Assembly: GCA_017434855.1 (NCBI GenBank) | Contig: JAFRUA010000071.1 | Location: forward strand, 1 to 59,320 | DNA length: 59,320 nt | Reading direction: 5' to 3' | DNA from: Clostridia bacterium | GTDB lineage: Bacteria > Bacillota > Clostridia > Oscillospirales > Acutalibacteraceae | Shown: one piece after another, positions 9,471-26,287 of the stretch | How positions within the stretch are numbered: position 1 is the first letter of the stretch | Layout: each line of letters starts with the position of its first letter | Notes under the pieces: generated by a model | Seen by the model: the letters and a program-made list of their open reading frames with translations, nothing else | Told to the model about the DNA's origin: nothing | Database searches by the model: none | Translations under genes and position numbers: made by a program

Positions 9471-9491
9471 GTTCAACACAATCAAAAAAGG

Positions 9492-9513: not shown

Positions 9514-9514
9514 T

Positions 9515-10007: not shown

Positions 10008-10048
10008 GCCGATTATCTGATTCGTGACAGGCGGACATACCGGTTGAG

Positions 10049-10173: not shown

Positions 10174-10204
10174 GATCCGCGGCCAAAGGCTGCTGCGTTT
10201 CGGC

Positions 10205-10243
10205 AAAAAAACGGCACGCCGGCTTGTCATGACCTGCGTGCCG
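10205..10243 (-). terminator. Intrinsic terminator of the phosphoesterase gene
   Basis: On the minus strand CGGCACGC and GCGTGCCG arms (10212-10219 / 10236-10243) are followed by seven T. It lies about 28 bp past the stop of the gene ending at 10271. Confidence 0.8.
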
Positions 10244-10270
10244 CCCCAGCGGATCGGTTTGCGGTTTGTC

Positions 10271-11857
10271 TTACCAGGTTCGGACCTCGTTCTGGATGAC
10301 GCTGCCGGCTTGATCAACGGCCTCAAAGTGTGCGCCCTGCGGCGTAAGCGTCAGCTTTGACGCGATGTAAGTTTTTGTGAATTGGTTATAGCCGCCGTCG
10401 ATATAGGTCGTGATGCCCGGGTATGTCGTGAGATATTCCTTTTTCGTGTCCGTGTCCCCGTCCAGAAATTCGCAGGTGTGGGTGTGGCCGCTGATCACAA
10501 AGCGCGCCCCCAGTGCACTGAATGCATCCCATGCCGCGCGCGACAGATCGTGCTCCGGTTCGCTGACCTGCCACGCATGGGTCAGCACGATCAGCTTGTC
10601 ACTTTGCACCTGGACGTTCTGCAGCCAGTCGATCATTTCCGTGCGTTCGGTGCGATACTCGGCCATGCCGCCGTATTCGATGTGGCTGTCGGGCTTGTCT
10701 TCGCCGCTGTCCAGAACCAGGAAGGCATAGGGGCCGCGCTGCGCTGTGTAATACAACTGCTCATAGCCGATGTATGACGGCATCTTTGCGGCAAAGGCGC
10801 CGCGCGTTTCATGATTGCCCCGGACATAGAGTACCGGCAGTTCGCCGCCCGTCAGGTCGCCGCCGAACTGTACGATGTATTTTGCCGCCTGCGCTTCAAA
10901 GTCCATGCCGGCTGCGGGGTCGCCCAGCATCAGCACGGCGTCATAATCGCCCAGATGAGAAATCGCTGTTTTGGCGTCTTTCAGGTGGGTGTGCCAGTCA
11001 GAGATGAGCAGATAGGTCTGCGTTTCGCTTTCGTTGACGCGCAGGGTATAGGGCCCTTTTCGGACCGTCTTTCCCTGCCGGCCGCCATAGCTGAAATCTT
11101 CGATCACGCGGGTGCTTTCGACCGAATAGCTGTTGTTTTTCAGGTGGGCATATGGAACATGGACCGTGTGGATCAGACGGTCGCCGATCCGCCGGCCGTT
11201 CTGCTGCGCATAGACGGTGTAGTCAACGCCCGCAAAGCTGTAGTGCACGCAGCCGGTGCCGGGACTGTTGGTGGCAAACACCACGGCGTAATCGGCGCCA
11301 GTATCCATCACCACGGGGTCCGCCACAATGCGGTACGGCATACATGGGAAAATGTGCCACAGCCCCGCGGCAATGAAGCAGACGGCAAGCCCGGCGCTGA
11401 GGAACGCCTTTCCTCTCTTTTTGAGGTTCGGCAGAACGATCAGCAGCAGCACCGCCGCAAAAAACAGCAGAATGCCCGGCAGGTCTTTTTTCAGGTACAG
11501 CAGCGCTGTGACGTCGGTTTCGCTGCCGGAAAAGATCAGGATCGCAATGTCTGCAACAACAAACAGCACGCTCATCGCAAACGCCGCCGCGCCGAGAATG
11601 CGGCAGACCCTGCTTTGGCAGAGCGATGCGCCGTTCTTTTTCACGTCAAACAGGCGCAGCGACAGCAGCGTGAGCGCGACCGCGATCACCAGAAGCGTGA
11701 TGACAAACACGCCCATGGCGCCGCCGATAACGCGCAACACCGGATCATAAAAGACCCAGACCATGCGTAGTGCGTGGAACATGCTGCTGCCTGCCGCGGC
11801 AAGCAACAGGGAAGTGAACAAGACGGGTGTGCGCATGAAAAAGGATTCTTTCTTCAT
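10271..11857 (-). CDS. Membrane-anchored calcineurin-like metallophosphoesterase
   Basis: A 528-residue protein. The N-terminal ~180 residues hold several hydrophobic membrane segments. The C-terminal half carries the metallophosphoesterase signature in order: an Asp-x-His element (SDWHTH), GDP, GNHE, a Thr-His-Ala-Trp segment, and GHTHTCEF at the end. These residues normally bind two metal ions and hydrolyse phosphoesters. An ordered Ig-like segment precedes the catalytic domain, so catalysis probably occurs outside the membrane. The substrate cannot be read from sequence. The start ATG at 11857 follows a GGGAGG ribosome site. The gene is transcribed alone, divergent from the acyl ligase at 12066, with its own promoter and terminator. 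Confidence 0.85.
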   Translation of the reverse strand: MKKESFFMRTPVLFTSLLLAAAGSSMFHALRMVWVFYDPVLRVIGGAMGVFVITLLVIAVALTLLSLRLFDVKKNGASLCQSRVCRILGAAAFAMSVLFVVADIAILIFSGSETDVTALLYLKKDLPGILLFFAAVLLLIVLPNLKKRGKAFLSAGLAVCFIAAGLWHIFPCMPYRIVADPVVMDTGADYAVVFATNSPGTGCVHYSFAGVDYTVYAQQNGRRIGDRLIHTVHVPYAHLKNNSYSVESTRVIEDFSYGGRQGKTVRKGPYTLRVNESETQTYLLISDWHTHLKDAKTAISHLGDYDAVLMLGDPAAGMDFEAQAAKYIVQFGGDLTGGELPVLYVRGNHETRGAFAAKMPSYIGYEQLYYTAQRGPYAFLVLDSGEDKPDSHIEYGGMAEYRTERTEMIDWLQNVQVQSDKLIVLTHAWQVSEPEHDLSRAAWDAFSALGARFVISGHTHTCEFLDGDTDTKKEYLTTYPGITTYIDGGYNQFTKTYIASKLTLTPQGAHFEAVDQAGSVIQNEVRTW

Positions 11858-11889
11858 CGGATGGCCCTCCCATATAACGGCTTTTTTTC

Positions 11890-11918
11890 ATATTAACACA
11901 AGGCGGGCGTCTTGTCAA
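11890..11918 (-). promoter_or_regulatory. Sigma-A-type promoter of the phosphoesterase
   Basis: On the minus strand TTGACA (11913-11918) and TAATAT (11890-11895) are separated by 17 bp. Confidence 0.65.
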
Positions 11919-11962
11919 ACAAAAGGACGATCTTCCGGACGGTTCAATTGTGACTTATTTTT

Positions 11963-12022
11963 TAAAATTGTGACACATTGTTTGAAGATGTGCTTGCTTT
12001 TCAAAAGAGAAATTGTTATAAT
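11963..12022 (+). promoter_or_regulatory. Promoter and candidate operator of the first acyl ligase
   Basis: TTGCTT (11994-11999), a 17-bp spacer and TATAAT (12017-12022). Upstream lies TTTAAAATTGTGACACA (11961-11977), which recurs almost unchanged in the same place before the paralogue at 13954. Its core TGTGACACA is a near-palindrome. A further ATTGTGAC half-copy starts at 11947. Confidence 0.65.
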
Positions 12023-12065
12023 AAAACAAAGTTTATTCGCATCCTATTTGAAGAGGGGAACCACT

Positions 12066-13739
12066 ATGCTGAAAATACCCGTGACCGCACAATCCAGAGA
12101 ATATCCGCCGACCGACATCACCTGCTGGAAATACTTTATCCGCAACAGCGCCCAATACGGCGATTACACGATCTTTTCTCATGCGGGCAAGAATCACAGC
12201 CGCAGCGAATTCATCGGCGATGTGGAGGCGCTTGCCGCGTTCTTTCACCGTGAGCTCGGCCTGAAAGAGCAGGACGTCTTCACCGTCTTTATGCCGACCA
12301 ACGCCGAAAGCATCATCACCTTTATGGCGCTGAACAAAATGGGCATCATCGTCAACTTTGTGCATCCGCTGCTGCCGCCCGAAAGTGTGGAAGAGATTCT
12401 GGATTTCACGCACTCCAAGGGCATTATGCTGCTGGACATGTTTGCGCCGAAATATGCCGCCATGCTGAAAAAGAAGGGCCTGCCCGTTGTGCTCTGTTCC
12501 CCGAAGGAATATTCGATCAGCGACAAAACGGCCTGCCCCATTGACGAAGAAGCCCTGCGCTCCCTGTCGTCCGGCAGCCTGAATGTTTATCAGTACCCGA
12601 CAATCCTCAAGCGTTATGCAAACCAGCACGTCAATTCCGTGCCGGAGGGCAAGGGCTACATCGCCGTCTATATGAACGGCGGCGGCACCACCGGCAAAAG
12701 CAAAACGATCAAGCTGACCAACTATGCGCTCAACTGCGTGATCTACGGTCTTGCGGGCGTCATCACCCCGGTGGAAAATATCGGCTATGACACCGAGCTG
12801 TGCACCATGCCGTTCTTCCATGCTTTCGGTCTGTGCGCCGGCGGCCTGTCTGCGCTCAGCAAGGGCTCGCGCGCGATCTTCCTGCCAAAGTTTGACGCCG
12901 ATCAGTTCATCGCCCTGATGAAGACGAACCACGTGGTCGAGTTCAACGGCGTGCCGAATATGTACAAAAAGCTGGTGGAGCGCCCGGATTTTGACGATCC
13001 GTCGCTCAAAAACATCAAGGTCATGTATTCCGGCGGCGACTTTGTCAGCCCGCAGCTGCTTGAAAAAATCTATGCCGTCATGCGCAAAAACGGCTCCAAC
13101 GCCGAGTTCTGCCCGGGCTACGGTCTGACGGAATGCGGTGCGGTCTGCTCTGCCAACCGCCCCTGGGCCAGCAAGCCCGAAACGATCGGCCAGCCCATCC
13201 AGGGCCTGCGCTTTGAAATCTGGGACGACAACAACCATGCGCTGCCCTGCGGCGAGATCGGCCAGATCGTCATCACCGGCGCATCCATGATGGCGGGCTA
13301 TCTGACCAAGAACGGCCCCAGCGACGCGGGCATCTACCGTGACGCCTACGGCACCAAATGGATTTTGACCGGCGACCTTGGCAAGATGGATGAAGAGGGC
13401 TATATTACCTTCATCGGCCGCCAGAAGCGCGTCATCATCATCTCCGGCTACAACGTCTATCCCGTGGACATCGAACAGCTGGTCGACACGCTGCCCTTTG
13501 TGCAGGAAAGCTGCGCCGTGCAGGGCTATCTCGGCGACAAGCCGATCGTGCGCCTGTTTGTGGTGAAGAAGGGCGCCGGCGACGAGGATGCGTACCGCGA
13601 AGAGATCACGGCCCTCATCAGCGACAACCTGTCGACGTTCAACATTCCGAAGGACATTCAGTTCATCGATGAGATTCCGCGTACCAAGCTGCAAAAGGTC
13701 GATTTCATGAAACTGTCGCAGTTCACGCCGGACGCATAA
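12066..13739 (+). CDS. AMP-forming acyl ligase (acyl-CoA synthetase family), paralogue 1
   Basis: A 557-residue class I adenylate-forming enzyme expected to activate a carboxylic acid with ATP as an acyl-AMP. The phosphate-binding loop near residue 203 reads NGGGTTGKSKT, close to but not identical with the usual TSGTTGxPKG. The YGLTECGAV acyl-adenylate motif and the TGDLGKMDEEGY hinge region are present. The terminal lysine region (RTKLQKVDF) fits the C-terminal subdomain. The start ATG at 12066 follows GAGGGGAACC; an upstream in-frame extension has no ribosome site and crosses the promoter. It is monocistronic, with a terminator at 13784. It is highly similar, at equal length, to the next gene. 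Substrate unknown; transfer to CoA or to the carrier domain of the 15706 protein are both possible. Confidence 0.85.
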   Translation: MLKIPVTAQSREYPPTDITCWKYFIRNSAQYGDYTIFSHAGKNHSRSEFIGDVEALAAFFHRELGLKEQDVFTVFMPTNAESIITFMALNKMGIIVNFVHPLLPPESVEEILDFTHSKGIMLLDMFAPKYAAMLKKKGLPVVLCSPKEYSISDKTACPIDEEALRSLSSGSLNVYQYPTILKRYANQHVNSVPEGKGYIAVYMNGGGTTGKSKTIKLTNYALNCVIYGLAGVITPVENIGYDTELCTMPFFHAFGLCAGGLSALSKGSRAIFLPKFDADQFIALMKTNHVVEFNGVPNMYKKLVERPDFDDPSLKNIKVMYSGGDFVSPQLLEKIYAVMRKNGSNAEFCPGYGLTECGAVCSANRPWASKPETIGQPIQGLRFEIWDDNNHALPCGEIGQIVITGASMMAGYLTKNGPSDAGIYRDAYGTKWILTGDLGKMDEEGYITFIGRQKRVIIISGYNVYPVDIEQLVDTLPFVQESCAVQGYLGDKPIVRLFVVKKGAGDEDAYREEITALISDNLSTFNIPKDIQFIDEIPRTKLQKVDFMKLSQFTPDA

Positions 13740-13783
13740 TCTGCGGCGATTTGCTCAAGTAAGAATACAATCAAATTGAAGCA

Positions 13784-13816
13784 CAAGGTGCGGAGGCATT
13801 CCGCACCTTGTTTTTT
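13784..13816 (+). terminator. Intrinsic terminator after acyl ligase 1
   Basis: A perfect 11-bp stem, CAAGGTGCGGA with TCCGCACCTTG, loop GGCAT, followed by six T. Confidence 0.9.
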
Positions 13817-13850
13817 CGCTTTTCTCAAAAAAGAAGATTTCAAAATATAT

Positions 13851-13912
13851 TTTAAAATTGTGACACACTGTGCAGATTTGTCATTGCTTTTTTAAAAGTG
13901 TGCTGATATAAT
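13851..13912 (+). promoter_or_regulatory. Promoter and candidate operator of the second acyl ligase
   Basis: TTGCTT (13884-13889), 17-bp spacer, TATAAT (13907-13912). TTTAAAATTGTGACACA at 13851-13867 matches the element before the first paralogue. The spacing of the operator to the -35 is also conserved. Confidence 0.65.
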
Positions 13913-13953
13913 AGCACAAACTAAAATGCAAAAAGCAGAAAAGGAGCAATCTC

Positions 13954-15627
13954 ATGACAAACATGCCCGTTACGCAGCAGTCCAAGGAATATCCGCCGAC
14001 CGACATCACCTGCTGGAAGTATTTCATCCGCAACACCGCGCAGTATGGGGACTATACGTTGTTCACCCACATGGGCAGGGACCACAGCCGCAGCGAATTC
14101 ATTGCCGACGTGGAAGCGCTGGCCGCGTTCTTTCACCGCGAGGTGGGGCTGAAAGAGCAGGATGTTTTCACCATTTTTATGCCGACAAATGCGGAAAGCC
14201 TGGTCGCCTTTATGGCGCTGAACAAGATGGGCATCATCGTCAACTTCGTTCATCCGCTGCTGCCGCCCGAAAACGTGGAAGAGCTGCTGAAGTTCACAGA
14301 CTCCAAGGGCATCATGATGCTGGATATGTTCGCGCCGAAATACGCGTCGTTCCTGAAAAAGATGGGTCTGCCCGTGATCCTCTGCTCCCCGAAAGAATAT
14401 GCCCTGCCGGACAAGACCGTCTGCCCGATCGACGAGGAGGCCCTGCGCGCGCTTTCCTCCGGCGACGTGAGCGTCTATGAGTACCCGGCGATCCTGCGGC
14501 ATTACGCCCACCAGCACGTCAACTCCGTGCCGGAGGGAAGAAAGTACCTCGCCGTCTATATGAACGGCGGCGGCACCACCGGCCGCAGCCGCACGATCAA
14601 GCTGTCCAACTTCGCGCTCAACAGTGTGATCTACGGTCTCGGCGCGGTCAATATCCCCATTCAGAAGATCGGTTATGACACCGAACTGTGCGCCATGCCG
14701 TTTTTCCATGCCTTCGGTCTGTGCGCCGGCGGACTGAACGCGCTCAACAAGGGCGCGCGGGCGATCTTTTTGCCAAAGTTTGACCCCGACGTATTCATTC
14801 AGCTCATCAAGACCTATCACGTCACGGAATTCAACGGCGTGCCGAATATGTACAAAAAGCTTGTGGAGCACCCCGGCTTTGACATGCCGGAGCTGAAAAA
14901 CATCAGCGTCATGTATTCCGGCGGCGATTTCGTCAGCCCCACGCTGCTGGAAAAGATTTATGCCGTTATGCGCAAAAACGGCTCCAAGGCGGAATTCTGC
15001 GCCGGCTACGGCCTGACGGAATGCGGCGCGGTCTGCTCTGCCAACCGCCTGTGGGCCAACAAGCCCGGCACGATCGGCCAGCCCATCCAGGGCCTGCGTT
15101 TTGAGATCTGGGACGACAACAACCGCGCGCTGCCCGCCGGCGAGGTGGGGCAGATCGTCATCACCGGGGCGTCCATGATGGACGGTTATCTGACCAAAAA
15201 CGGCCCGGCCGACACCGGCATCTATCGCGACGCCTACGGCACCAAATGGATTTTGACCGGCGACCTCGGCAAGATAGACGAAGAGGGCTATGTCACCTTC
15301 ATCGGCCGCAAAAAGCGCGTCATTATCATCTCCGGCTACAACGTCTATCCCGTGGACATCGAGCAGCTGGTGGAGGACCTGCCGTTTGTGCAGGAATGCT
15401 GCGCCGTGCAGGGCTATCTCGGCGACAAGCCGATCGTGCGCCTGTTTGTGGTGAAGTGTGAGGACGGCGACGAGGACGCCTACCGCGAGACGATCACAAA
15501 GCTGGTCTCCGATAACCTGTCGGTTTTCAGCGTGCCGAAGGACATCCGTTTCATCGACGAGATTCCGCGCACCCGGCTGCAAAAGGTGGACTTTATGTCG
15601 CTGTCGCAGTTTGAGCCGGAAGTTTAA
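13954..15627 (+). CDS. AMP-forming acyl ligase (acyl-CoA synthetase family), paralogue 2
   Basis: 557 residues, the same length as the ligase at 12066 and obviously a recent duplicate of it; most differences are conservative. The same unusual loop (NGGGTTGRSRT), YGLTECGAV and TGDLGKIDEEGY motifs are present, so both copies look intact. The start ATG at 13954 follows AAAGGAG. It is preceded by its own copy of the promoter/operator and followed within 80 bp by the promoter of the megaenzyme at 15706. Retention of two functional copies with identical control suggests dosage or slight substrate divergence. It probably provides activated acyl groups related to the pathway of the 15706 protein, but this is inference from position. 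Confidence 0.85.
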   Translation: MTNMPVTQQSKEYPPTDITCWKYFIRNTAQYGDYTLFTHMGRDHSRSEFIADVEALAAFFHREVGLKEQDVFTIFMPTNAESLVAFMALNKMGIIVNFVHPLLPPENVEELLKFTDSKGIMMLDMFAPKYASFLKKMGLPVILCSPKEYALPDKTVCPIDEEALRALSSGDVSVYEYPAILRHYAHQHVNSVPEGRKYLAVYMNGGGTTGRSRTIKLSNFALNSVIYGLGAVNIPIQKIGYDTELCAMPFFHAFGLCAGGLNALNKGARAIFLPKFDPDVFIQLIKTYHVTEFNGVPNMYKKLVEHPGFDMPELKNISVMYSGGDFVSPTLLEKIYAVMRKNGSKAEFCAGYGLTECGAVCSANRLWANKPGTIGQPIQGLRFEIWDDNNRALPAGEVGQIVITGASMMDGYLTKNGPADTGIYRDAYGTKWILTGDLGKIDEEGYVTFIGRKKRVIIISGYNVYPVDIEQLVEDLPFVQECCAVQGYLGDKPIVRLFVVKCEDGDEDAYRETITKLVSDNLSVFSVPKDIRFIDEIPRTRLQKVDFMSLSQFEPEV

Positions 15628-15635
15628 GAAAAGAA

Positions 15636-15664
15636 TTGCAACCCGCAACGATTTGTGCTATAAT
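15636..15664 (+). promoter_or_regulatory. Promoter of the acid-reducing megaenzyme
   Basis: TTGCAA (15636-15641), 17-bp spacer, TATAAT (15659-15664). The TTGTGACACA element of the two upstream ligases is absent here. Confidence 0.65.
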
Positions 15665-15705
15665 TAATTAGTTAGGAATTTTTTGACCGGAAAGAAGGAC
15701 GTTTC

Positions 15706-18700
15706 ATGATCCTGGAAGATTTGACGACCCTGCGCAGCCTGAAACATATGGTGGACTATGCGGCGGAAAATTACGGCGCGGACCCGTTCGTGACGTGGAA
15801 AACGTCGGACGGCATCACCAGCCGTACCTATGCGCAGTTCAAAGCCGACACCGAAGCACTCGGCCGCTTCTTTGTACAGAACGGTCTGCAGGGCGCGCAC
15901 GCCGCCATCATCGCGGCGAATTCCTACGCCTGGCTGACGGCGTACTTCGGCGCGGCAAACTGCGGCAGCGTGGCTGTGCCTCTGGCTGCCAACGAAACGC
16001 CGGAGCAACTTTGCCGCCTGACGGATTTTGCCGACTGCAAGGTCGTGTTCCTTGACAAGGCGCACGCCGCTTTGGTGCCGCTGCTGCGTGAAAACGCGCC
16101 GCAGGTGCAGCACGTGATCTTCCTTGATGAAAAAGGACCTGACGGCACGCTGTTATTGCAGGACGTTCTGACGCAGTACGCGGGCGCGTACCCGGACGAG
16201 CCGGACGGCGACGCCATGTGCGCGATTTTGTTCACGTCCGGCACCACAGGCTTTCCGAAGGGCGTCATGCTGACGCACCGCAATTTTGTGCTGTCTGCAA
16301 CGTGCGTGCATGTCGCCTGCCCGACCCATACGCTGCTTTGCGTGCTGCCGCTGAGCCACGCGTTTTGCTTCACGGCGATCATCACCAAGGGCATCGCCAA
16401 GGGCAAAGAGATCTATATCAACGACGCCTTGCCCAATCTGATGGACAACATCCGCCTGTTCAAGCCGGAGTCCATGGCCGTTGTTCCGCAGCTTGCCAAA
16501 AAGCTGATGTTCGGCGCGCTGAAATTTGCCGAAGCGCGCAAGGATCTGACCGAAGAGCAGGCCGTGAAAGCCTTTTTCGGCGGCAACATCATCGACGTCA
16601 TTTCCGGCGGCGCGCCGCTGGAGCCGGAGCTGGCCATCCGCTTTGAAAAGACGGGCGTGCCCGTGCTCAACGGCTACGGCATGACAGAGTGCGCCCCCAT
16701 CATCGCCAACAACGCTTCGTTCTGCATGCGCGCCGGGTCTGTGGGCAAGCCCATCCCGTGCATGGAAACAGTCATCCGCAACGGCGAGCTGCTGGTGCGC
16801 GGCCCCACCGTGTTCAAGGGGTACTATAAGAATCCGGAAGAGACCGCCGCAGCCTTCACCGACGACGGCTGGTTCAAGACCGGCGACCTTGGCCATTTTG
16901 ACAACGACGGCTTTTTGTACCTGACCGGGCGCAGCAAAAACCTCATCCTGCTTGATAACGGCGAAAATGTGTCCGCCGAGCAATTGGAAGACCGCTTTGC
17001 CAACGAGCATGCGGTCAAGGAGGTCGTCTGCTACGGCGAGGGCAACGCCATCGTGGCCGAGGTGTTCCTTGACGCGGACGAGCTGAAGGCCGCCGCCGTC
17101 ACCGATGTGGACGCCCTGATGATCGAGGTGCTGCAGCGGGTCAACAGCGGCCTTGCCGCCTTCCAGCGCATCTCGCGCTATGTGATCCGCCCAGTGCCGT
17201 TCCGCCGCAACGCGTCGATGAAGATCATCCGCAACTTTGAGCATACCAAGCAGGCGCGCAAAATCGCGCCGCCCGTCACGCCCACGCAGAAAAAGGTCTG
17301 CGCGGCGGCCGCCGACCTGCTCTCGCTGGACGAGGTCGGCATTGACGACAACTTCTTTGCCCTCGGCGGCAGCAGCCTGTCGGCCGTGGAGTTTGCCCTG
17401 ACGCTGAACATCGAGCCGCAGCTTGTCTATGACAAGCCGTTCCTTGGCCTGTTGGCGGCGGCGATCGACGCGCTGCAGGAAGACACCGATGTGCAAAACG
17501 AAGCCGAGGTCAATGACTGGATCAAAGCAACGCGCGGCGGGACCCGCACGGACGAAGCAAAGCATATTCTTTTGACCGGCGCCACCGGCTTTTTGGGCGC
17601 GCATGTGCTGCGTGCACTGCTGACGCACGACGTGGAAATCTGGGCGCTGGTGCGCTCCCGCGAACGCTTTTTGCGCCGCATGAAGTATTATTTCGGCGAC
17701 CTGGACGTATCCGGCGTGCATCTGGTCATCGGCGACGTGGAGCAGCCCCGGCTCGGCCTGACCAAAGCGCTGTTTGACGAGCTGGCCGAAACGATCGACA
17801 CGGTCGTTCACACGGCGGCGAACGTGCACCATGCCGGCGACTATGCCGACCTGGCGCGTACCAATGTGGAGGGCACAAAGCACGTCATCGATTTTGCGGT
17901 GCAGGCAAACGCTGTACTGCAGCACATGTCCACCACGAGTCTGCACGGCGCGGGGACCGTGATCGAGGACCACAAGCACGCCGTCATGGACGAGACAACG
18001 CTTTACATCGGCCAGCATTATGCCGACAACGTCTATATCCACAGCAAGTATGAAGCCGAGCGCGCCGTGCTGCAGGCACGCAAAGACGGCCTTGCGGCCA
18101 ACATCTTCCGCATGGGCAACCTGACGTGGCGGCAGAGCGACGGCGTTTTTCAGCCGAACGCGGGCGACAACGGCTTTTTGCACCGCGTCCGCTCTATTTT
18201 AAAGCTCGGCCTTGTCAACGACAACATGGACAAGTACCCCATGGACCTGACAGCCATCGACGAGGCGGCGGCCGCCGTGACGGCGCTGTCGCTGCAGCCG
18301 CAGGTCAATGAGATCTATCATATCATCAACCCGCAGTACTTGCCGACGCGCGAGATGTTCCGCCTGCTCGGCGTGCCGTACCGTGAGGCGTCCACCGCCG
18401 AAACGATCGAAACCGTCATGGCCAACACCGACGACCGCGACGTGCATGTGTTTGAATTCTATTCCCTGATCGCCGCGCGCAGCGAAAACGTCGAGCTTGG
18501 GACGGAGTTTACGGTCAATGCCCTGCGTGACTGCGGCTTTTCATGGACGGCGCCCGACGCACGCTATCTGAAGCTCGGGAATCATTGCCTCGGTTACGAC
18601 GCCTATACGCCCGTGCCGATGCGCGAGACCGGCGGCACGCTGACCTATATTCAAAAGCTGTTCCTCGGCGTTCTGCGCGACGCGGAACTGCAGCAAAGCA

Positions 18701-19788
18701 AAACGGTCGCGCGGCCTGGCTGCATTGCCGAGCTGCCTGCAAATGCCGCCGCGCTCGGGATGCGGCGCCCGCTGATCTTGACCTTTGACGCTGCAATGAC
18801 CATGCCGTCTGTGCAGGCCGCGCTGGCCGAGATCGACACATACGAAATCTTTACCGACATTGCGGGCGAACCGACGCTGCCCGACGCAGACAAAATTCTT
18901 GACGCCTACACTGCCGCGCACTGCGACGGCGTGATCGCCATCGGCGGCGGCTCTGTGCTGGACCTTGCAAAGATCACGGCCCTGCGCGCGGGCAACCCCG
19001 GCGCCGACGTGGACGACATCTGCAAGGTGGACTCCAAGGCCAACCGTTCGGTGCCGTTCATCGCGGCGCCGACCACGGCGGGCACCGGCTCCGAGGTCAC
19101 GCTCTTCGCCGTCATTACCGACGAAGAGGGCAAGAAAAAGCCCTTTGCCAGCACCAAGTTCCTGCCGGATGTGGTGCTGCTGGACGCCGCACTGACCCTG
19201 ACCGTGCCGAAGATGACGACCGCCTGCACGGCCATCGACGCGCTGAGCCACCTGATCGAGGCCTCGGTCAGCTTGTATGCCGCCGCGTTTGCGGAGGATC
19301 TGACCGAAGCGCCCCGAAGCGCCGCCGCGATCTTCCGCGCGCTGCCAAAGGCGCTTGAAAATCCGCAGGACCTTGCCGCGCGTGAGGCGCTGCTTCTGGC
19401 GTCGCACAGGGCCGGCATCGCGTTCCGCCGCGCCAGCACGGGCTATGTCCACGCCATTGCGCACCGTCTGGGCGAATACTATCACCTGCCGCACGGCCTT
19501 GCCATTGCCGCAGTGCTGACCGGCGTGCTGCGCGCCTCACGTCCCTATGTGGATGCGCCGCTGCAGGTGCTTGCAAAGGCTGTCGGCTGCGGTGACAGCG
19601 CCGACGCATTCATCGACGCGCTTGACCGCCTGATCGCCGGCGCCGGCATCGACGTCAAAGCGATCCGTGTGCTGCCGGAAGACCTGGACGAGATCGTGAC
19701 CAAGGCCCAGGACGAGGCACGCATCACAGGCTATCCCAAGCCGTTCAGCGATCATGCGCTGCACGAGCTGATCCAAACGATGTTATAA
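15706..19788 (+). CDS. Adenylation–carrier–thioester reductase–iron alcohol dehydrogenase fusion
   Basis: A 1,360-residue multidomain enzyme. Domain 1 (about 1-515) is an AMP-forming adenylation domain with FTSGTTGFPKG near 176, YGMTEC and TGDLGHFDNDG. Domain 2 (about 520-590) is a phosphopantetheine carrier with LGGSSL, Ser557 being the likely attachment site. Domain 3 (about 615-960) is a thioester reductase of the short-chain dehydrogenase type with TGATGFLG near 623 and a YIHSK catalytic pair near 777. Domain 4 (about 985-1360) is an iron-dependent alcohol dehydrogenase with GGGSVLDLAK near 1080, the Asp-x3-His of DALSH near 1178, and two further His in GYVHAIAHRLGEYYHLPHG. The first three domains match carboxylic acid reductases (acid to aldehyde using ATP and NADPH); the fourth would reduce the aldehyde to an alcohol. 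Start ATG 15706 follows AAAGAAGGA. A phosphopantetheinyl transferase is needed and is not in the window. Confidence 0.9.
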   Translation: MILEDLTTLRSLKHMVDYAAENYGADPFVTWKTSDGITSRTYAQFKADTEALGRFFVQNGLQGAHAAIIAANSYAWLTAYFGAANCGSVAVPLAANETPEQLCRLTDFADCKVVFLDKAHAALVPLLRENAPQVQHVIFLDEKGPDGTLLLQDVLTQYAGAYPDEPDGDAMCAILFTSGTTGFPKGVMLTHRNFVLSATCVHVACPTHTLLCVLPLSHAFCFTAIITKGIAKGKEIYINDALPNLMDNIRLFKPESMAVVPQLAKKLMFGALKFAEARKDLTEEQAVKAFFGGNIIDVISGGAPLEPELAIRFEKTGVPVLNGYGMTECAPIIANNASFCMRAGSVGKPIPCMETVIRNGELLVRGPTVFKGYYKNPEETAAAFTDDGWFKTGDLGHFDNDGFLYLTGRSKNLILLDNGENVSAEQLEDRFANEHAVKEVVCYGEGNAIVAEVFLDADELKAAAVTDVDALMIEVLQRVNSGLAAFQRISRYVIRPVPFRRNASMKIIRNFEHTKQARKIAPPVTPTQKKVCAAAADLLSLDEVGIDDNFFALGGSSLSAVEFALTLNIEPQLVYDKPFLGLLAAAIDALQEDTDVQNEAEVNDWIKATRGGTRTDEAKHILLTGATGFLGAHVLRALLTHDVEIWALVRSRERFLRRMKYYFGDLDVSGVHLVIGDVEQPRLGLTKALFDELAETIDTVVHTAANVHHAGDYADLARTNVEGTKHVIDFAVQANAVLQHMSTTSLHGAGTVIEDHKHAVMDETTLYIGQHYADNVYIHSKYEAERAVLQARKDGLAANIFRMGNLTWRQSDGVFQPNAGDNGFLHRVRSILKLGLVNDNMDKYPMDLTAIDEAAAAVTALSLQPQVNEIYHIINPQYLPTREMFRLLGVPYREASTAETIETVMANTDDRDVHVFEFYSLIAARSENVELGTEFTVNALRDCGFSWTAPDARYLKLGNHCLGYDAYTPVPMRETGGTLTYIQKLFLGVLRDAELQQSKTVARPGCIAELPANAAALGMRRPLILTFDAAMTMPSVQAALAEIDTYEIFTDIAGEPTLPDADKILDAYTAAHCDGVIAIGGGSVLDLAKITALRAGNPGADVDDICKVDSKANRSVPFIAAPTTAGTGSEVTLFAVITDEEGKKKPFASTKFLPDVVLLDAALTLTVPKMTTACTAIDALSHLIEASVSLYAAAFAEDLTEAPRSAAAIFRALPKALENPQDLAAREALLLASHRAGIAFRRASTGYVHAIAHRLGEYYHLPHGLAIAAVLTGVLRASRPYVDAPLQVLAKAVGCGDSADAFIDALDRLIAGAGIDVKAIRVLPEDLDEIVTKAQDEARITGYPKPFSDHALHELIQTML

Positions 19789-19796
19789 AACCGTGT

Positions 19797-19831
19797 GCAC
19801 GCTGTCGATCGGAATTGACGGCGTGCTTTTT
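19797..19831 (+). terminator. Intrinsic terminator after the megaenzyme
   Basis: GCACGCTGTC (19797-19806) pairs with GACGGCGTGC (19817-19826), with one wobble, followed by five T. Confidence 0.8.
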
Positions 19832-19843
19832 GTTTGCAGCCCA

Positions 19844-19872
19844 TTGACATTTTGAAAGAGGAACGATACAAT
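19844..19872 (+). promoter_or_regulatory. Promoter of the radical SAM operon
   Basis: TTGACA (19844-19849), 17-bp spacer, TACAAT (19867-19872), 32 bp before the first start codon. Confidence 0.7.
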
Positions 19873-19904
19873 AATATTATAATGAATAAAGCAGGTGAAC
19901 CGGA

Positions 19905-20222
19905 ATGAAAGAAAAGGACTACCCGTGGAACCATACGGCAAAAGCGCCGGAAGACATCGGTCGCCCAAAGCCGGTCTATGCTGCGCCTTCGCTTGGTCGA
20001 AGGCTGAAAGGCCGACTGCGCCGCGAAGAAAAACAGGCGGCGCGCCTTCCGATCAAGATGTATGAGGCCGTCTATGCCGGGCCGGAGTATTTCGAGCGGT
20101 TCGGTCCGCCGCCGCAGACAGTGCAGCTTGTTTGCCCGGCGTGCGGTGCGGTCGTGTCAGAGGGCGACGCTGCCTGTGCCGCCTGCGGCTGCCCGCTGAA
20201 AGCGGATGAGGAGAACGCATGA
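19905..20222 (+). CDS. Small zinc-ribbon protein heading the radical SAM operon
   Basis: 105 residues. The N-terminal half is basic (LGRRLKGRLRREEKQ near 30-45). A Tyr-rich segment, MYEAVYAGPEYFERFGPPP, covers about 52-70. A C-terminal zinc ribbon has two CxxC pairs (CPAC and CAAC, about 76-95). Its last codons overlap the radical SAM start by ATGA, so the two are translationally coupled. The family is not recognised. Coupling to a SPASM radical SAM enzyme makes it a candidate substrate, adaptor or carrier for that enzyme. The zinc ribbon is not typical of a peptide precursor, so this role is only a hypothesis. Confidence 0.7.
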   Translation: MKEKDYPWNHTAKAPEDIGRPKPVYAAPSLGRRLKGRLRREEKQAARLPIKMYEAVYAGPEYFERFGPPPQTVQLVCPACGAVVSEGDAACAACGCPLKADEENA

Positions 20223-21253
20223 ACCGACACGATGACTTTCCGTTTCAGCTGCGGACCTGCGTGTGGGAGATCACGCTGGCGTGCTGCTTTCGCTGCGCCT
20301 ATTGCGGGTCTGCCGGCGGCCGCGCGCGTGAAAATGAATTGAGCACCGCAGAGTGTGTGGATGTGGCGCGTCAGCTTTCAGAGCTCGGCTGCCGCCGGGT
20401 GTCGCTGATCGGCGGCGAGGTCTTTTTGCGCCGCGACTGGACGACCATCGTGACGGCGCTGACGGGCCGCGGCGTACAGACCGCCATCATCACCAACGGC
20501 TTTCAGATGACGCCGGGCATCATTGCGGACCTGCGGCGCACCGGTGTGGAATCGGTCGCCGTGTCGGTCGACGGGCCGCGGGAGGTGCACGACGCCTTTC
20601 GTCAGCCGGGCAGCTTTGACCGGGCGTTCGCGGCAATCGACGCGCTGACAAAGGCGGCGATCCCGACCTCGGTGATCAGTGCGCTGCGCGCCGACAATGC
20701 GCCGCTGCTGCCGCAGTTTTATGAAACGCTCAGGCAGTACCCGATCTTTGCGTGGCAGATTCAGGCCTGCGCGCCCATGGGCAACGCGGGAAGCAACCAT
20801 CTGAACGTGCGCTTTGATGCGGCAAAGGTACTGCGCTTCGTCAACGACGTGGCGGATACCGCGCCGTTTTATGTGGGCGTGGCTGACAACATCGGCTATT
20901 ATACCCCGCAGGAGGGCAATGTCCGCGGCGAACCGGGCGCGTGCTTCACGGGCTGCATCGCGGGTCTGTCCGGCATCGGGATCGACAGCGTGGGCAACGT
21001 GCGCGGCTGCGAATCCATGTATGACCCGCGGTTCAACGAGGGCAACCTGCGGCAGCGTTCGCTGCGCGACATCTGGACGGACCCCGCCGCGTTTGCCTAT
21101 AACCGCCGATTTGATGCGAAAAAGCTGACCGGCGCGTGTGCCGATTGTCCGCACGGGGCGGTGTGTGCCGGCGGCTGCCGGTCCTACAACTGGTTCACAT
21201 CGCACAATTTGTTTGAAAGCCCGCTGTGCGCCAGAGTGCATAGCTTTGATTGA
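20219..21253 (+). CDS. Radical SAM protein with SPASM-type C-terminal domain
   Basis: 344 residues. The CX3CX2C motif that binds the SAM-cleaving [4Fe-4S] cluster is Cys22, Cys26 and Cys29 (CCFRCAYC). The GGE segment (IGGEVFL) is conserved. The C-terminal ~110 residues are Cys-rich in the SPASM pattern: CFTGC, a GNVRGC element, ADCPHGAVCAGGC, and a last Cys in SPLC. Such domains bind auxiliary [4Fe-4S] clusters and are typical of enzymes that modify peptides or proteins. It starts by ATGA overlap with the upstream zinc-ribbon gene and is followed closely by the TPR gene. Substrate unknown. Confidence 0.88.
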   Translation: MNRHDDFPFQLRTCVWEITLACCFRCAYCGSAGGRARENELSTAECVDVARQLSELGCRRVSLIGGEVFLRRDWTTIVTALTGRGVQTAIITNGFQMTPGIIADLRRTGVESVAVSVDGPREVHDAFRQPGSFDRAFAAIDALTKAAIPTSVISALRADNAPLLPQFYETLRQYPIFAWQIQACAPMGNAGSNHLNVRFDAAKVLRFVNDVADTAPFYVGVADNIGYYTPQEGNVRGEPGACFTGCIAGLSGIGIDSVGNVRGCESMYDPRFNEGNLRQRSLRDIWTDPAAFAYNRRFDAKKLTGACADCPHGAVCAGGCRSYNWFTSHNLFESPLCARVHSFD

Positions 21254-21264
21254 AGGAGAACACC

Positions 21265-22098
21265 ATGAACGATTCATTTTTGCAGCCGGAGGATTATCTG
21301 GAGCCGCGCTGCCTGCTTTGCGACATGCCGGTCGGGATGGAGCAGGTGAAGCCGGTGCCGCAGGGGCGCATCATTGAAAAGCTGGACGATTATATGAGCC
21401 GCCGCGATTACGCCGGGGCAGAGCGCCATCTGAAGTATTGGCTGGAAGAGGCAAAGGCCGGCCACGACAGGGGCGGCGCGCTGATGATTCACAACGAGCT
21501 GGTCGGCCACTACCGCAAAACCGGCAGCCGCAACGGTGCATTTGAGCACGCCGAAGCGGCACTGCGGCTGGTTGACGAGCTGAAACTGCAAAATACCGTC
21601 ACCGCCGGAACCACATATATCAACGCCGCCACGGCCTGCAACGCCTTTGGCGAAAACGAGCGCGCCCTTGCTTTGTTTGAGCAGGCGGCCGCCGCATATG
21701 AGGCGGTTGGGTCTGTGGCGCCGGAAAAGCTGGGCGGTCTGTATAACAACATGGGGCTGACCCTGACGGCGCTCGGGCGGTACGGGGAAGCGTATGCGCT
21801 GTTTGACAAGGCGCTGCATGTGATGAAAAGCGCAGACCACGGCGCATTGGAGCAGGCAATCACCTGCCTGAACATTGCAGACGCCAAGAAAGCCGAGCTG
21901 GGCGCCGACGCGGCCGAACAGGAGATCGACGCGCTGCTGGACCGGGCATATGATCTGCTGAACACGCCGGGCATTCCGCGGGACGGCTACTATGCCTTCG
22001 TCTGTGAAAAATGTGCGCCCGCCTTTTCCTATTACGGCTATTTCCTTGCGGCGAATGAATTGAAAAAGAGATCGGAGGCCATTTATGAACGCGCTTGA
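21265..22098 (+). CDS. Tetratricopeptide-repeat protein of the radical SAM operon
   Basis: 277 residues from the ATG at 21265, which has AAGGAG six bases upstream; an upstream TTG in the same frame is less likely. The N-terminus carries a Cys pair (CLLC near 15-18). Residues about 35-215 form helical TPR repeats, with ALALFEQAAAAYEAVG and GRYGEAYALFDKAL segments clear. It is probably a cytoplasmic scaffold binding a partner protein. It overlaps the start of the DUF4037 gene by 14 bp, so the two products are likely made together. Confidence 0.8.
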   Translation: MNDSFLQPEDYLEPRCLLCDMPVGMEQVKPVPQGRIIEKLDDYMSRRDYAGAERHLKYWLEEAKAGHDRGGALMIHNELVGHYRKTGSRNGAFEHAEAALRLVDELKLQNTVTAGTTYINAATACNAFGENERALALFEQAAAAYEAVGSVAPEKLGGLYNNMGLTLTALGRYGEAYALFDKALHVMKSADHGALEQAITCLNIADAKKAELGADAAEQEIDALLDRAYDLLNTPGIPRDGYYAFVCEKCAPAFSYYGYFLAANELKKRSEAIYERA

Positions 22099-23026
22099 AA
22101 CGTCGCGGTCCTATTTTGAAACCTTTGGCCGCCCGATGCTGGAGCGCGACTTTCCACAGGTGCTGCCATACCTTGCAGCCGGGCTGTTCGGCAGCGGGTC
22201 GGAGTGCTTCGGCTTTGACGACGCCGTGTCTGCCGACCACGACGTTGAACCGGGGTTCTGTCTGTTTTTGCCGGGCGAGGACGTGGTGGACCGGCGCACG
22301 GCCTTTTTGCTGGAACGCGCCTATGCCAGGCTGCCGAAGGAGTATATGGGCCTGCGGCGGTCGCTACTGGCCCCGGTGGGCGGGCCGCGCAGGGGCGTGC
22401 TGCGCACGGCGGAATTCTTTACCGACACGGTTGGCGCGCCCGACGGTGCGCTGACGCTGCAGCAGTGGCTCACCGTGCCGCAGCATTCGCTGGCCGAAGC
22501 GACCAACGGCGCCGTCTATTTTGATAACTTCGGCGAAGTGACGTGCATCCGCGACCGTCTGCAAACGTACCCCGAACCGGTGCGGCAAAAGAAACTGGCC
22601 GGCCATCTGCTGCTCATGGCGCAGGCGGGGCAATATAACTTCCGGCGCTGCCTGCTGCACGGCGAAGAGGCTGCCGCGCAGTTGGCCGTGTTTGAATTTG
22701 TCAAACATGCCGCGGCGGTGATCTTTCTGCTGAACCGCCGTTATGCGCCATACTATAAGTGGTCGTTCCGCGCGCTGCGGGCGCTGCCTGAGCATTCGCT
22801 GGAGGCGGAGATTTTTGAGTACCTGCTGACCACCGGCAACGACAACGCGCTGGCAGAAGAAAAATACGACGCGATCGAGGGCGTGTGTGCCGACGTGATC
22901 GACGCGCTGCGGGCGCAAAACCTGACGGACGCGATCTGCGGCGATCTGGAAAAGCACGCCTATTCGGTCAACGACCACATCACCGACGCAGAACTGCGCA
23001 ACCTGCATATCCTTGCAACCATTTGA
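22085..23026 (+). CDS. DUF4037 nucleotidyltransferase-like protein
   Basis: 313 residues. The N-terminal region resembles the DUF4037 family: a LETSRSYFETFGRPMLE helix, then GSGSECFGFDDAVSADHD near 38-55. The Gly-Ser and Asp-x-Asp pattern fits the nucleotidyltransferase fold, where the acids bind Mg-NTP. The remainder is helical and resembles substrate-binding helices of that fold. It would transfer an NMP to an unknown acceptor. It overlaps the TPR gene and is followed 16 bp later by the NrdG-type gene. Family assignment is from remembered consensus, not a search. Confidence 0.75.
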   Translation: MNALETSRSYFETFGRPMLERDFPQVLPYLAAGLFGSGSECFGFDDAVSADHDVEPGFCLFLPGEDVVDRRTAFLLERAYARLPKEYMGLRRSLLAPVGGPRRGVLRTAEFFTDTVGAPDGALTLQQWLTVPQHSLAEATNGAVYFDNFGEVTCIRDRLQTYPEPVRQKKLAGHLLLMAQAGQYNFRRCLLHGEEAAAQLAVFEFVKHAAAVIFLLNRRYAPYYKWSFRALRALPEHSLEAEIFEYLLTTGNDNALAEEKYDAIEGVCADVIDALRAQNLTDAICGDLEKHAYSVNDHITDAELRNLHILATI

Positions 23027-23042
23027 ACGGGGGAAAGACAAA

Positions 23043-23735
23043 ATGCAAATCCACGGACTGCAAAAAATGACGCTGCTTGATTTTCCGGGCGTGGTGTCGT
23101 GCACGGTCTTTTTGGGCGGCTGCGATTTCCGCTGCCCGTTCTGCCACAACTATGAGCTGGCAGACGGCACCGCAAAGCCGGTGATGGAGGACGACGACCT
23201 GATCGATTTTTTGCGCCGGCGCAAGCCGCTGCTGGACGGCGTTGCCATCACGGGGGGCGAGCCGTGCCTGCACCCGGGGCTGCCGGAGCTGATCGAACGT
23301 ATCCGGGCCGAAGGGTACCGCGTCAAGCTGGATACCAACGGGTACCACCCCGCGCGGCTGCAGGGGCTCCTTGACGCCGGTCTGGTGGACTATGTGGCGA
23401 TGGATATCAAAAACAGCGAAGAAAAATATGTCGCAACCTGCGGCCTGCACACGGTGGACCTGGGGCGCATCAAGGAAAGCATCGGCCTGCTGATGAACGG
23501 GCAGATGGATTATGAATTTCGCACCACCGTTGTGCGGGAATTCCATGAGGCCGAAGATTTTGAGCGCATGGGTGAAATGATCCGCGGCGCAAAGCGCTAT
23601 TTTCTGCAGCGGTTCACCGACCGCGACACCGTGCCCTTCGGCAATTTGAGCGCACCGTCGTTTGACGATATGAAAGCCTATGCCGCCATTGCGCGCCGCT
23701 ATGTTGCCGATACCCGGCTGCGCGGCGTGGAATGA
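23043..23735 (+). CDS. nrdG: Anaerobic ribonucleotide reductase activating protein (NrdG-type radical SAM)
   Basis: 230 residues. Cys27, Cys31 and Cys34 (CDFRCPFCHN) form the CX3CX2C cluster motif; TGGEPCLHPGL and KLDTNG follow, as in glycyl-radical activases. The N-terminus (LQKMTLLDFPG) matches the NrdG2-type subfamily. It is expected to generate the glycyl radical on NrdD, encoded just downstream. The start ATG at 23043 follows GGGGGAAAG. It lies 16 bp after the DUF4037 gene, so it appears co-transcribed with the radical SAM operon, while nrdD has its own promoter. Confidence 0.85.
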   Translation: MQIHGLQKMTLLDFPGVVSCTVFLGGCDFRCPFCHNYELADGTAKPVMEDDDLIDFLRRRKPLLDGVAITGGEPCLHPGLPELIERIRAEGYRVKLDTNGYHPARLQGLLDAGLVDYVAMDIKNSEEKYVATCGLHTVDLGRIKESIGLLMNGQMDYEFRTTVVREFHEAEDFERMGEMIRGAKRYFLQRFTDRDTVPFGNLSAPSFDDMKAYAAIARRYVADTRLRGVE

Positions 23736-23747
23736 TTTTTGAAAGAA

Positions 23748-23817
23748 TCACAAGATATTGTGCTTTTTAAATTTTTTGACCGAATATATTGACAAAACGC
23801 CTTCTTCGTGATACAAT
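23748..23817 (+). promoter_or_regulatory. nrdD promoter with tandem NrdR boxes
   Basis: TTGACA (23789-23794), 17-bp spacer, TACAAT (23812-23817). TCACAAGATATTGTGC (23748-23763) matches the 16-bp NrdR box closely. A weaker box with core AATATATTG lies at 23779-23794, exactly 31 bp downstream start to start (15-bp gap), overlapping the -35. This is the arrangement at which the repressor NrdR binds ribonucleotide reductase promoters. No nrdR gene is in the window. Confidence 0.75.
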
Positions 23818-23881
23818 GCTTCTTGCAGCGTCAACAGACGCAACCTGGCTTGAAAGAATTATCACGAGGGAGGAAAATTTT

Positions 23882-26272
23882 ATGTACCAGGTCATTAAAC
23901 GCGACGGCAGCGTGACCGAGTTTGATATCGCAAAGATCAGCGCCGCCATCGCCAAGGCCTTTGAAGCGCAGGGCAAGCAGTCGCACCCCAGCGTGATCGA
24001 CCTGATCGCGCTGCATGTGACGGCAGATTTTGAAAGCAAGATCAAGGATGAAAAGGTTTCGGTGGAAGCGATTCAGGACAGCGTGGAAAAGGTGCTGTCG
24101 GAATCCGGCTATGCCGATGTGGCCAAGGCCTACATTCTGTATCGCAAACAGCGTGAAAAGGTCCGCAACATCAATTCCGCACTGCTCAACTACAAAGACA
24201 TCGTTGACAACTATCTCAAGATCAACGACTGGCGCGTCAAAGAGAATGCGACCGTCACCTATTCGGTCGGCGGCCTGATTTTGTCGAACTCCGGCGCCAT
24301 CACCGCCAACTACTGGCTCAGCGAGGTCTATGACGACGAGGTTGCCAACGCCCACCGCAATGCCGAGATCCATCTGCACGACCTGTCCATGCTGACCGGT
24401 TACTGCGCGGGCTGGAGCCTGAAGCAGCTCATTCAGGAGGGCCTTGGCGGCGTCACCGGCAAGATCACGTCTTCGCCGGCAAACCATCTGTCCACGCTGT
24501 GCAATCAGATGGTCAATTTCCTTGGCATCATGCAGAATGAATGGGCCGGCGCCCAGGCATTCTCTTCGTTCGACACCTATCTTGCGCCCTTTGTCAAGAT
24601 CGACAACCTGTCGCAAAAGGAAGTCAAGCAGTGCGTGCAGTCGTTTGTCTACGGCGTCAACACGCCCAGCCGCTGGGGCACCCAGGCGCCGTTTTCCAAC
24701 ATCACGCTGGACTGGGTCGTGCCAAACGACCTGAAAAACCTGCCCGCCATCATCGGCGGCAAAGAGGTCGATTTCACCTATGGCGACTGCCAGAAGGAAA
24801 TGGACATGGTCAACAAGGCGTTCATCGAGATCATGATCGAGGGCGACGCCAACGGCCGCGGCTTCCAGTACCCGATCCCGACCTATTCCATCACGCGCGA
24901 CTTTGACTGGAGCGAAACCGAAAACAACAAGCTGCTGTTTGAAATGACCGCGAAGTACGGCACGCCGTATTTTTCCAACTATATCAACTCCGATATGGAA
25001 CCGAGCGACGTGCGTTCCATGTGCTGCCGTCTGCGTTTGGACCTGCGCGAGCTGCGCAAAAAGTCCGGCGGCTTCTTCGGCTCCGGCGAATCGACCGGCT
25101 CCATCGGCGTGGTGACCATCAACCTGCCGCGCATCGCGTACCAGGCAAAAGACGAGGCCGATTTTTACAAGCGGCTGGATCATCTGATGGACATTGCCGC
25201 CCGCAGCCTGAAGACCAAGCGCACCGTGATCACCACGCTGCTCAATCAGGGCCTGTATCCCTATACCAAGCGGTATCTCGGCACGTTTGAAAACCACTTT
25301 TCCACGATCGGCCTGATCGGCATGAACGAGGTCGGCCTCAACGCAAAGTGGCTGCGCGCCGACCTGACGGACCCGAAGGTGCAGCGTTTTGCCCGCGACG
25401 TGCTCAACCACATGCGCGAACGTCTGTCTGATTATCAGGAGCAGTACGGCGACCTGTATAATCTGGAAGCGACGCCGGCGGAATCGACGACCTATCGCTT
25501 TGCCAAGCATGACAAAGAGACATTCCCGGATATCATCACGGCCAATATGAACGGCGCGCCGTATTATACCAATTCGTCGCACCTGCCGGTCGGTTACACC
25601 GAAGACATCTTCTCCGCTCTGGACATTCAGGACGATCTGCAGACGCTCTATACCTCCGGCACGGTGTTCCACGCCTTCCTCGGCGAAAAGCTGCCGGACT
25701 GGAAAGCGGCCGCAAACCTGGTGCGCAAGATCGCCGAAAACTACAAGCTGCCGTATTACACCATGTCGCCGACCTATTCCGTCTGCAAGGATCACGGCTA
25801 TCTGACCGGCGAGCAGTACACCTGCCCCATCTGCGGCGCCAAGACCGAGGTCAACAGCCGCATCACCGGGTATTATCGCCCGATCCAGAACTGGAACGAC
25901 GGCAAGGCGCAGGAATTCAAAGACCGCAAGGTTTACGACATCGGACATTCGCATCTGACCCACACCGGGCCGAACCCCGCGCCGGTGGATCATCCCGCTC
26001 CTGCGGCGGCGGAATCTGCCGCCCCGGCACCGGCGGTGCAGACGGCAGACGTGCTGCTGTTCAAAACGGCGACCTGCCCCAACTGCAAGGCGGCGGCCGC
26101 GCTGCTTGACAAGGCAGGCGTGGCATATCAGGCGCTCAATGCCGACGAAGAGCCGGAGCTGGTTGCAAAATACGGCGTCCGCCAGGCGCCCACCCTGGTG
26201 ATCCTGACCGACGGCGGGTTTGAAAAATTCCGCGGCGTGTCAGACATCAAGGGCTGGCTGATGAAAAAATAA
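23882..26272 (+). CDS. nrdD: Anaerobic (class III) ribonucleoside-triphosphate reductase with fused redoxin domain
   Basis: 796 residues. An ATP-cone (about 1-95) gives allosteric control. The catalytic ten-stranded barrel follows. The C-terminal zinc site includes Cys635, Cys648 and Cys651, and the glycyl-radical site is RITGYY with Gly663. After an Ala/Pro-rich linker (about 690-717), a thioredoxin/glutaredoxin-like domain follows with the pair Cys732-Pro-Asn-Cys735. The enzyme makes dNTPs without oxygen. The fused redoxin suggests electrons come from a dithiol rather than formate, and the thioredoxin reductase gene lies just downstream. The start ATG at 23882 follows GGGAGG. Intact. Confidence 0.92.
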   Translation: MYQVIKRDGSVTEFDIAKISAAIAKAFEAQGKQSHPSVIDLIALHVTADFESKIKDEKVSVEAIQDSVEKVLSESGYADVAKAYILYRKQREKVRNINSALLNYKDIVDNYLKINDWRVKENATVTYSVGGLILSNSGAITANYWLSEVYDDEVANAHRNAEIHLHDLSMLTGYCAGWSLKQLIQEGLGGVTGKITSSPANHLSTLCNQMVNFLGIMQNEWAGAQAFSSFDTYLAPFVKIDNLSQKEVKQCVQSFVYGVNTPSRWGTQAPFSNITLDWVVPNDLKNLPAIIGGKEVDFTYGDCQKEMDMVNKAFIEIMIEGDANGRGFQYPIPTYSITRDFDWSETENNKLLFEMTAKYGTPYFSNYINSDMEPSDVRSMCCRLRLDLRELRKKSGGFFGSGESTGSIGVVTINLPRIAYQAKDEADFYKRLDHLMDIAARSLKTKRTVITTLLNQGLYPYTKRYLGTFENHFSTIGLIGMNEVGLNAKWLRADLTDPKVQRFARDVLNHMRERLSDYQEQYGDLYNLEATPAESTTYRFAKHDKETFPDIITANMNGAPYYTNSSHLPVGYTEDIFSALDIQDDLQTLYTSGTVFHAFLGEKLPDWKAAANLVRKIAENYKLPYYTMSPTYSVCKDHGYLTGEQYTCPICGAKTEVNSRITGYYRPIQNWNDGKAQEFKDRKVYDIGHSHLTHTGPNPAPVDHPAPAAAESAAPAPAVQTADVLLFKTATCPNCKAAAALLDKAGVAYQALNADEEPELVAKYGVRQAPTLVILTDGGFEKFRGVSDIKGWLMKK

Positions 26273-26287
26273 AAAACAGAATCACGG

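Follow-up and report, generated by a model that had tools for sequence, protein, structure and literature searches.

We analysed the 59,320-nucleotide contig JAFRUA010000071.1 (assembly GCA_017434855.1) of a Clostridia bacterium, hereafter the window, and found that it encodes at 15706-19788 on the forward strand a four-domain protein, which is probably a single-chain reductase converting a carboxylic acid into a primary alcohol with ATP and NAD(P)H. The open reading frame (ORF) runs uninterrupted from ATG to stop over 1360 aa, and its translation comprises, in one chain and in this order, an acyl adenylation domain (A), a carrier domain (T), a thioester reductase domain (R) of the nonribosomal peptide synthetase (NRPS) type and an iron-type alcohol dehydrogenase (Fe-ADH). 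Every Pfam assignment lies above its own curated cut-off: AMP-binding at aa 18-374 (216.9 bits), AMP-binding_C_3 at aa 413-510 (29.7 bits, cut-off 20.8), PP-binding at aa 530-568 (26 bits, cut-off 20.8), NAD_binding_4 at aa 623-856 (137.6 bits), Fe-ADH (PF00465) at aa 999-1160 (140.2 bits, cut-off 31.3) and ADH_Fe_C (PF25137) at aa 1172-1358 (112.6 bits). On the forward strand of the window, the A domain (aa 18-510) thus occupies 15757-17235, the matched part of the carrier 17293-17409 with the codon of Ser557 at 17374-17376, the R domain (about aa 620-957) 17563-18576, and the ADH domain (about aa 980-1360) 18643-19785.

We infer every catalytic step, its direction and its cofactor from the sequence as follows. 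The A domain would use ATP to adenylate an acyl acid, not an amino acid, and the resulting acyl-AMP would be loaded as a thioester (acyl-S-T) onto the phosphopantetheine arm of Ser557, an arm presumably installed by the one phosphopantetheinyl transferase detected in the genome, a single PF01648 match on its contig C63. The R domain would then draw on NAD(P)H, likely NADPH, to reduce the thioester and would release the aldehyde, and the fused iron-type ADH would spend another NAD(P)H on turning this aldehyde into the alcohol. As for the substrate, the best matches of the A domain are 4-coumarate, malonyl-CoA and long-chain fatty acid ligases, with none of the ligase cut-offs shown being reached; because of these matches, and because sister ligases are often encoded beside an acyl carrier protein (ACP), a fatty or aryl acid is our best guess in preference to an amino acid. 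If the assignment is right, this bacterial protein would go from acid to alcohol as a self-contained catalyst whose last step depends on a metal; it would be of use in producing alcohols with little free aldehyde and would open a way into an alcohol or ester metabolism of rumen bacteria that has so far gone unstudied.

The residues on which such a scheme would depend are strongly conserved. Among 22 aligned fused rows, which show 48-83% identity, some being partial and apparent duplicates of the same contig being omitted, K185, H218, E328, D394, R409, K411 and K506 of the A domain and Ser557 of the carrier, which sits within LGGSSL, are identical in all 21 covering rows, and so are G625, G628 and G631 of the GxxGxxG motif (625-631), R650, S742, T743, Y777 and K781 of the R domain, where R650 is presumably the residue favouring NADPH. 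In the ADH domain, G1080-G1082 of the GGGS motif (1080-1083), D1086, D1178, H1182, H1249, H1253 and H1263 are identical in 19/19 covering rows, while S1083 is kept in 17 of the 19; its Asp and His residues align with those of solved Fe-ADHs, and by this homology we take D1178, H1182, H1249 and H1263 to be the metal ligands. Moreover, the pairwise ratios of nonsynonymous to synonymous substitution rates against six close relatives are 0.08-0.13 for A, 0.11-0.20 for T-R and 0.18-0.31 for ADH, so all three parts are under purifying selection with the ADH domain least constrained. A dead ADH domain is ruled out by the invariant ligands together with this selection, and three loci that could pass for relatives devoid of ADH (L110, L165 and L166) simply end, as contig or as locus, inside it. 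The original prediction, which had proposed four domains in biosynthetic order with Ser557 as the carrier residue, is therefore borne out by Pfam and by the alignment, and the loss of the reductase Tyr/Lys or of the Fe-ADH metal residues in homologues, which it had regarded as fatal to its reading, was seen in none of the covering rows. The fatty alcohols, ether-lipid precursors or signalling alcohol that it had envisaged would be no more than candidate products.

The same architecture recurs in a narrow circle of relatives. A search of genome contigs gave 301 relatives, of which the best 80 were kept, yielding 78 loci; in 12 of these (L027-L038), the match spans practically all of the gene, at 47-83% identity, with the first 8 residues absent from L034, whose contig starts 8 residues into the protein. 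They come from 12 different records of metagenome-assembled genomes (MAGs), each holding the gene in one open frame, and an assembly or frameshift artefact was rejected on this ground. The MAG titles read Ruminococcaceae, Oscillospiraceae, Clostridiaceae or Clostridia; ruminant rumen, omasum or rectum is named in 6/12 of them, in agreement with the gut setting surmised earlier, five further titles carry RUG numbers, which we take to indicate rumen origin, and that of L029 gives no source. The remaining 66 kept loci match inside aa 1-567, except for L071, a spirochaete locus matching aa 41-1271, which was considered as a second four-domain protein and rejected as a 567-aa ligase and a 401-aa Fe-ADH in separate frames.

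The four-domain architecture was also sought in genome samples, which overlap, form part of the database and were scored for the best candidates per genome. For the window's GTDB family, a sample of 300 genomes gave 18 with a match at 1e-100 or better; seven of them have the fused gene (G000, G162, G003, G056, G187, G174 and G060, the last as two pieces with overlapping query ranges, which may represent two truncated copies), and the other 11 match in the A domain only. In the order sample (394 genomes, threshold 1e-90), the fused gene is present in the window's own genome only, together with two unfused A-T-R genes (in G332 and G572) and three A-only matches; the class sample (391 genomes) gave the own genome and 17 A-only matches, and the phylum sample (299 genomes) the own genome only. 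Within the samples searched, the fused gene is confined to the window's GTDB family. For mobile elements, none of 1501 matching plasmid records covers 80% of the query in one place, and of 25 candidate stretches from viral contigs, searched with two peptides only, three match the A domain weakly.

One of the two unfused genes suggests how the fused one may have been built. In G572, a genome that belongs to a different family of the order, the A-T-R gene (locus L149, 8779-11688) is preceded on the same strand, at a distance of 18 bp, by an Fe-ADH gene (7591-8760). The same domains thus occur in two adjacent genes, unfused and with an A domain of another lineage. The G572 ADH is 42% identical to the fused ADH domain over 310 aa, and it scores 243 bits against 181 bits for the best other free-standing Fe-ADH of 295 order genomes, a rough comparison as the two scores come from two programs and the 295-genome match list is without G572. 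Among the unfused loci compared, the R domain is nearest to L148 (50%) and L149 (47%). In a midpoint-rooted ADH tree of 44 rows, the G572 ADH joins the 16 fused domains at 98/95.

Several observations weigh against our reading or the origin just outlined. A first ADH tree of 52 rows left the G572 ADH unplaced, and it joined the fused domains only after four long-branched rows and four near duplicates had been dropped with that tree already seen. The A domain groups with free-standing ligases (100/99), apart from the A domains of the A-T-R genes, and a common origin of the fused and A-T-R A domains appears in 0% of 200 bootstrap trees (15 of 17 fused rows were used, L028 and L034 being omitted). 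An ADH neighbour is present at just one of the two unfused A-T-R genes, with none adjoining that of G332, and the two families concerned, searched in 197 and 20 genomes, yielded no additional unfused A-T-R gene. Finally, in the window's own genus matches occur in 12/34 genomes, two of the 12 being cut inside the ADH, and in 3/15 among the better assemblies; with so patchy a presence, the reductase is not essential in the genus.

Descent of the whole fused protein from a G572-like A-T-R gene and its ADH was accordingly rejected, for the R and ADH domains fit it but the A domain does not. The kinship of the G572 ADH with the fused domains has good, though not final, evidence, since the tree rows were picked by similarity to the window's ADH, some were dropped afterwards, and the L149 branch is long. 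The fused gene would then have arisen by fusion plus an exchange of the A domain, the latter probable because this domain groups with free-standing ligases and not with the A domains of A-T-R genes. If so, the fused and unfused forms and the apparently exchanged A domain would show clearly how an enzyme can be built by fusing genes and swapping a domain.

Compared with known systems, the protein shares with carboxylic acid reductases (CARs) the A-T-R order, intact active sites and a presumed acid-to-aldehyde chemistry, while it differs in an R domain that is not of the CAR type and in the extra ADH domain. The membership of the CAR family claimed in the original prediction does not hold: the family model NCBIfam NF041592 scores 181.2 bits, far below its cut-off of 1300, and the T-R part matches the NRPS chain 6vtj, presumably of archaeal origin, at 173.6 bits against 47.5 for the CAR 5msc. 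The thioester reductase domain model TIGR01746 likewise stays under its cut-off (184.4 against 213.35 bits), with NAD_binding_4 above its own. Among solved chains, the terminal R domains of NRPSs (6vtj and AusA 4f6l) are closest in sequence to the R domain here, yet the protein has no condensation domain and no peptide assembly, and its aldehyde reductase is fused and of the Fe-ADH type. In gramicidin synthesis, according to an earlier report cited in a passage of PMC2835699, a separate dehydrogenase, LgrE, reduces the aldehyde, and in the same part of this 2010 survey R is reported without any other flanking domain. Among the openly licensed papers listed, we found no description of an Fe-ADH fused behind an R domain, nor of a CAR with an iron-containing ADH, an ADH domain or a natural fusion partner; with coverage restricted to such papers, this silence only weakly suggests that nobody has described the architecture so far.

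AdhE also fuses an aldehyde-forming half to an Fe-ADH, and solved AdhEs match the ADH domain here. AdhE takes acyl-coenzyme A through a half of the aldehyde dehydrogenase type, whereas a CoA-acylating aldehyde dehydrogenase half is not among the 14 Pfam matches of our protein, and the AdhE-type ADH domains form a separate group (100/100) in the tree of 44 rows. The idea of going from acid to alcohol in one chain has a precedent in a fungal A-T-R1-R2 enzyme (ATRR), a glycine betaine reductase for which Hai et al. 2019 is reportedly the primary paper. As described in parts of PMC11050029, this enzyme turns glycine betaine into choline, as a nematode A-T-R1-R2 enzyme also seems to do. The likeness, as far as that description goes, is an A-T-R part followed by a second reductase in one chain, with acid converted to alcohol by two two-electron steps. 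However, the last domain described there is a YdfG-like short-chain dehydrogenase/reductase and not a metal-type Fe-ADH (PF00465 and PF25137), the architecture is described as exclusive to eukaryotes (PMC11050029) and ours is bacterial, and its substrate is glycine betaine, our A domain being of the acyl-ligase type; the two are set apart here by description and not by sequence. We class the protein with the acid-to-alcohol NRPS-like reductases, as a variant. The earlier statement that known CARs stop at the aldehyde was too strong, because of this fungal precedent and because a fungal and a mycobacterial CAR are reported, in part of PMC10168641, to have a side activity that turns aldehydes into alcohols.

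Such over-reduction bears on the most serious rival explanation, in which the R domain by itself would carry the thioester through all four electrons to the alcohol, leaving the ADH to assist, to scavenge aldehyde that leaks out, or to work on some other compound. NRPS R domains are reported to give primary alcohols alone (in a passage of PMC2835699), which also counts against our assignment, CAR R domains can reduce aldehydes (PMC10168641, in part), and the R domain here is of the NRPS type; however, the ADH ligands are identical in every covering row, the domain is under purifying selection, and in G572 an ADH gene stands beside the unfused form, so that we consider this explanation rather unlikely. 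It is markedly improbable that the Fe-ADH is mainly oxidative or a regulatory ErcA-like domain and the chain no net acid reducer. ErcA is indeed the best Fe-ADH model in NCBIfam, but its 195.6 bits are far under the cut-off of 550; and though Fe-ADH enzymes are reversible, an ATP-driven A-T-R part in front would make most sense in the direction of reduction. Least probable of all is an ordinary electron sink of fermentation, working like AdhE with entry from the acid instead of acyl-CoA, for which it may be said that AdhE joins an aldehyde-forming half to an Fe-ADH, that solved AdhEs match the ADH domain, and that frames of AdhE size carrying this ADH domain are present in the order. Such a sink would cost ATP for each acid, the gene is patchy in the genus, and the ADH domains of the AdhE type stand in their own group. 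A single-chain reductase in which R and ADH each carry out one step thus remains the reading that we prefer.

The surroundings of the gene hint at how it may be expressed. A consensus scan gave a promoter-like site at 15636-15664 on the forward strand (TTGCAA-17-TATAAT, with TG before the second hexamer), GAAGGA ahead of the ATG looks by eye like a ribosome-binding site, and a terminator-like hairpin, likewise from consensus only, with a 13-bp stem and a T tract, lies at 19797-19826 on the same strand between the reductase and the radical-SAM genes. With such sites before and after it, the reductase may be transcribed alone or together with the preceding ligase gene. This gene, lig2 (13954-15627, forward strand), encodes by Pfam an acyl/aryl-CoA-ligase-like protein, and in front of it lig1 (12066-13739, forward strand, with a likely start at 12066 and not 11763) encodes a second one, 82% identical to lig2. 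Both ligases have odd phosphate-binding loops, GGGTTGKSKTIKL and GGGTTGRSRTIKL, where the usual loop is SGTTGxPKGV. A ligase of this kind adjoins the reductase in close relatives too: it is directly upstream in 10/16 loci (the window, L027, L028, L029, L030, L031, L033, L035, L036 and L110) and was not found nearby in the other six (L032, L106, L107, L108, L109 and L038), the count leaving out L034, which lacks an upstream flank, and three short-flanked loci (L163, L165 and L166). In L164, a gene resembling this ligase by eye stands tail to tail with the reductase.

A different neighbourhood is seen in G056 (L107, 2758-11814), where GH3, condensation and ligase genes come after the reductase in a same-strand row. 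Plants are the best-known source of GH3 proteins. The window's own genome has condensation-domain genes on its contigs C12 and C76, and its contig C62 carries an NRPS that includes both condensation and reductase regions. About 2.3 kb separate the transferase on C63 from a GH3 gene, and another GH3 gene adjoins the condensation and ACP genes on C76. The condensation proteins of G056 and C76 share 47% identity, the GH3 proteins of G056 and C63 33%. Moreover, many of the free-standing ligases that group with the fused A domain adjoin condensation and ACP genes. Drawing on the G056 run, one may imagine that a rumen Bacillota lineage fused an Fe-ADH to A-T-R and took the A domain from a condensation-ACP operon, and that free-standing condensation proteins then join the resulting fatty or aryl alcohol by esterification to ACP-bound or GH3-activated acyl groups, which would give an undescribed wax-ester-like or ether-like lipid; we put this forward as a speculation that is unlikely to hold. 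The presence of GH3 as such says nothing on the reductase, as it is found in 33/34 genomes of the genus. At least three GH3 matches occur in 8/12 reductase carriers against 4/22 non-carriers of the genus, with fragments counted and kinship ignored.

In clostridial loci L112-L122 and L150-L154 (for example L119, 9020-13513), a set of genes recurs that comprises a free-standing condensation-domain protein, an ACP of 75-92 aa and a FadD-like ligase, accompanied in several loci by an alpha/beta hydrolase, an SCP2 protein and a TetR regulator; the Pfam names come from L119 and L121 only, the other loci being assigned by clustering or by eye. Downstream of the reductase, 19905-23026 encodes zinc-ribbon-like (below the Pfam cut-off), radical SAM/SPASM, TPR and DUF4037 proteins with overlapping ends. 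A link of these radical SAM, TPR and DUF4037 genes to the reductase was rejected, because the 19 other loci searched, many of them short-flanked, show no match next to the reductase gene, and because the terminator-like site intervenes. Rfam gave no match at the gathering threshold in 9000-27000. Further upstream, direct repeats occupy the intergenic stretch 9514-9958 (a 170-nt repeat with 92% identity and a 68-nt one with 99%, spaced by 213 and 216 nt), and 84-9470 is a very long ORF of 3128 aa, repetitive by eye, with a long frame on the opposite strand at 2388-9164.

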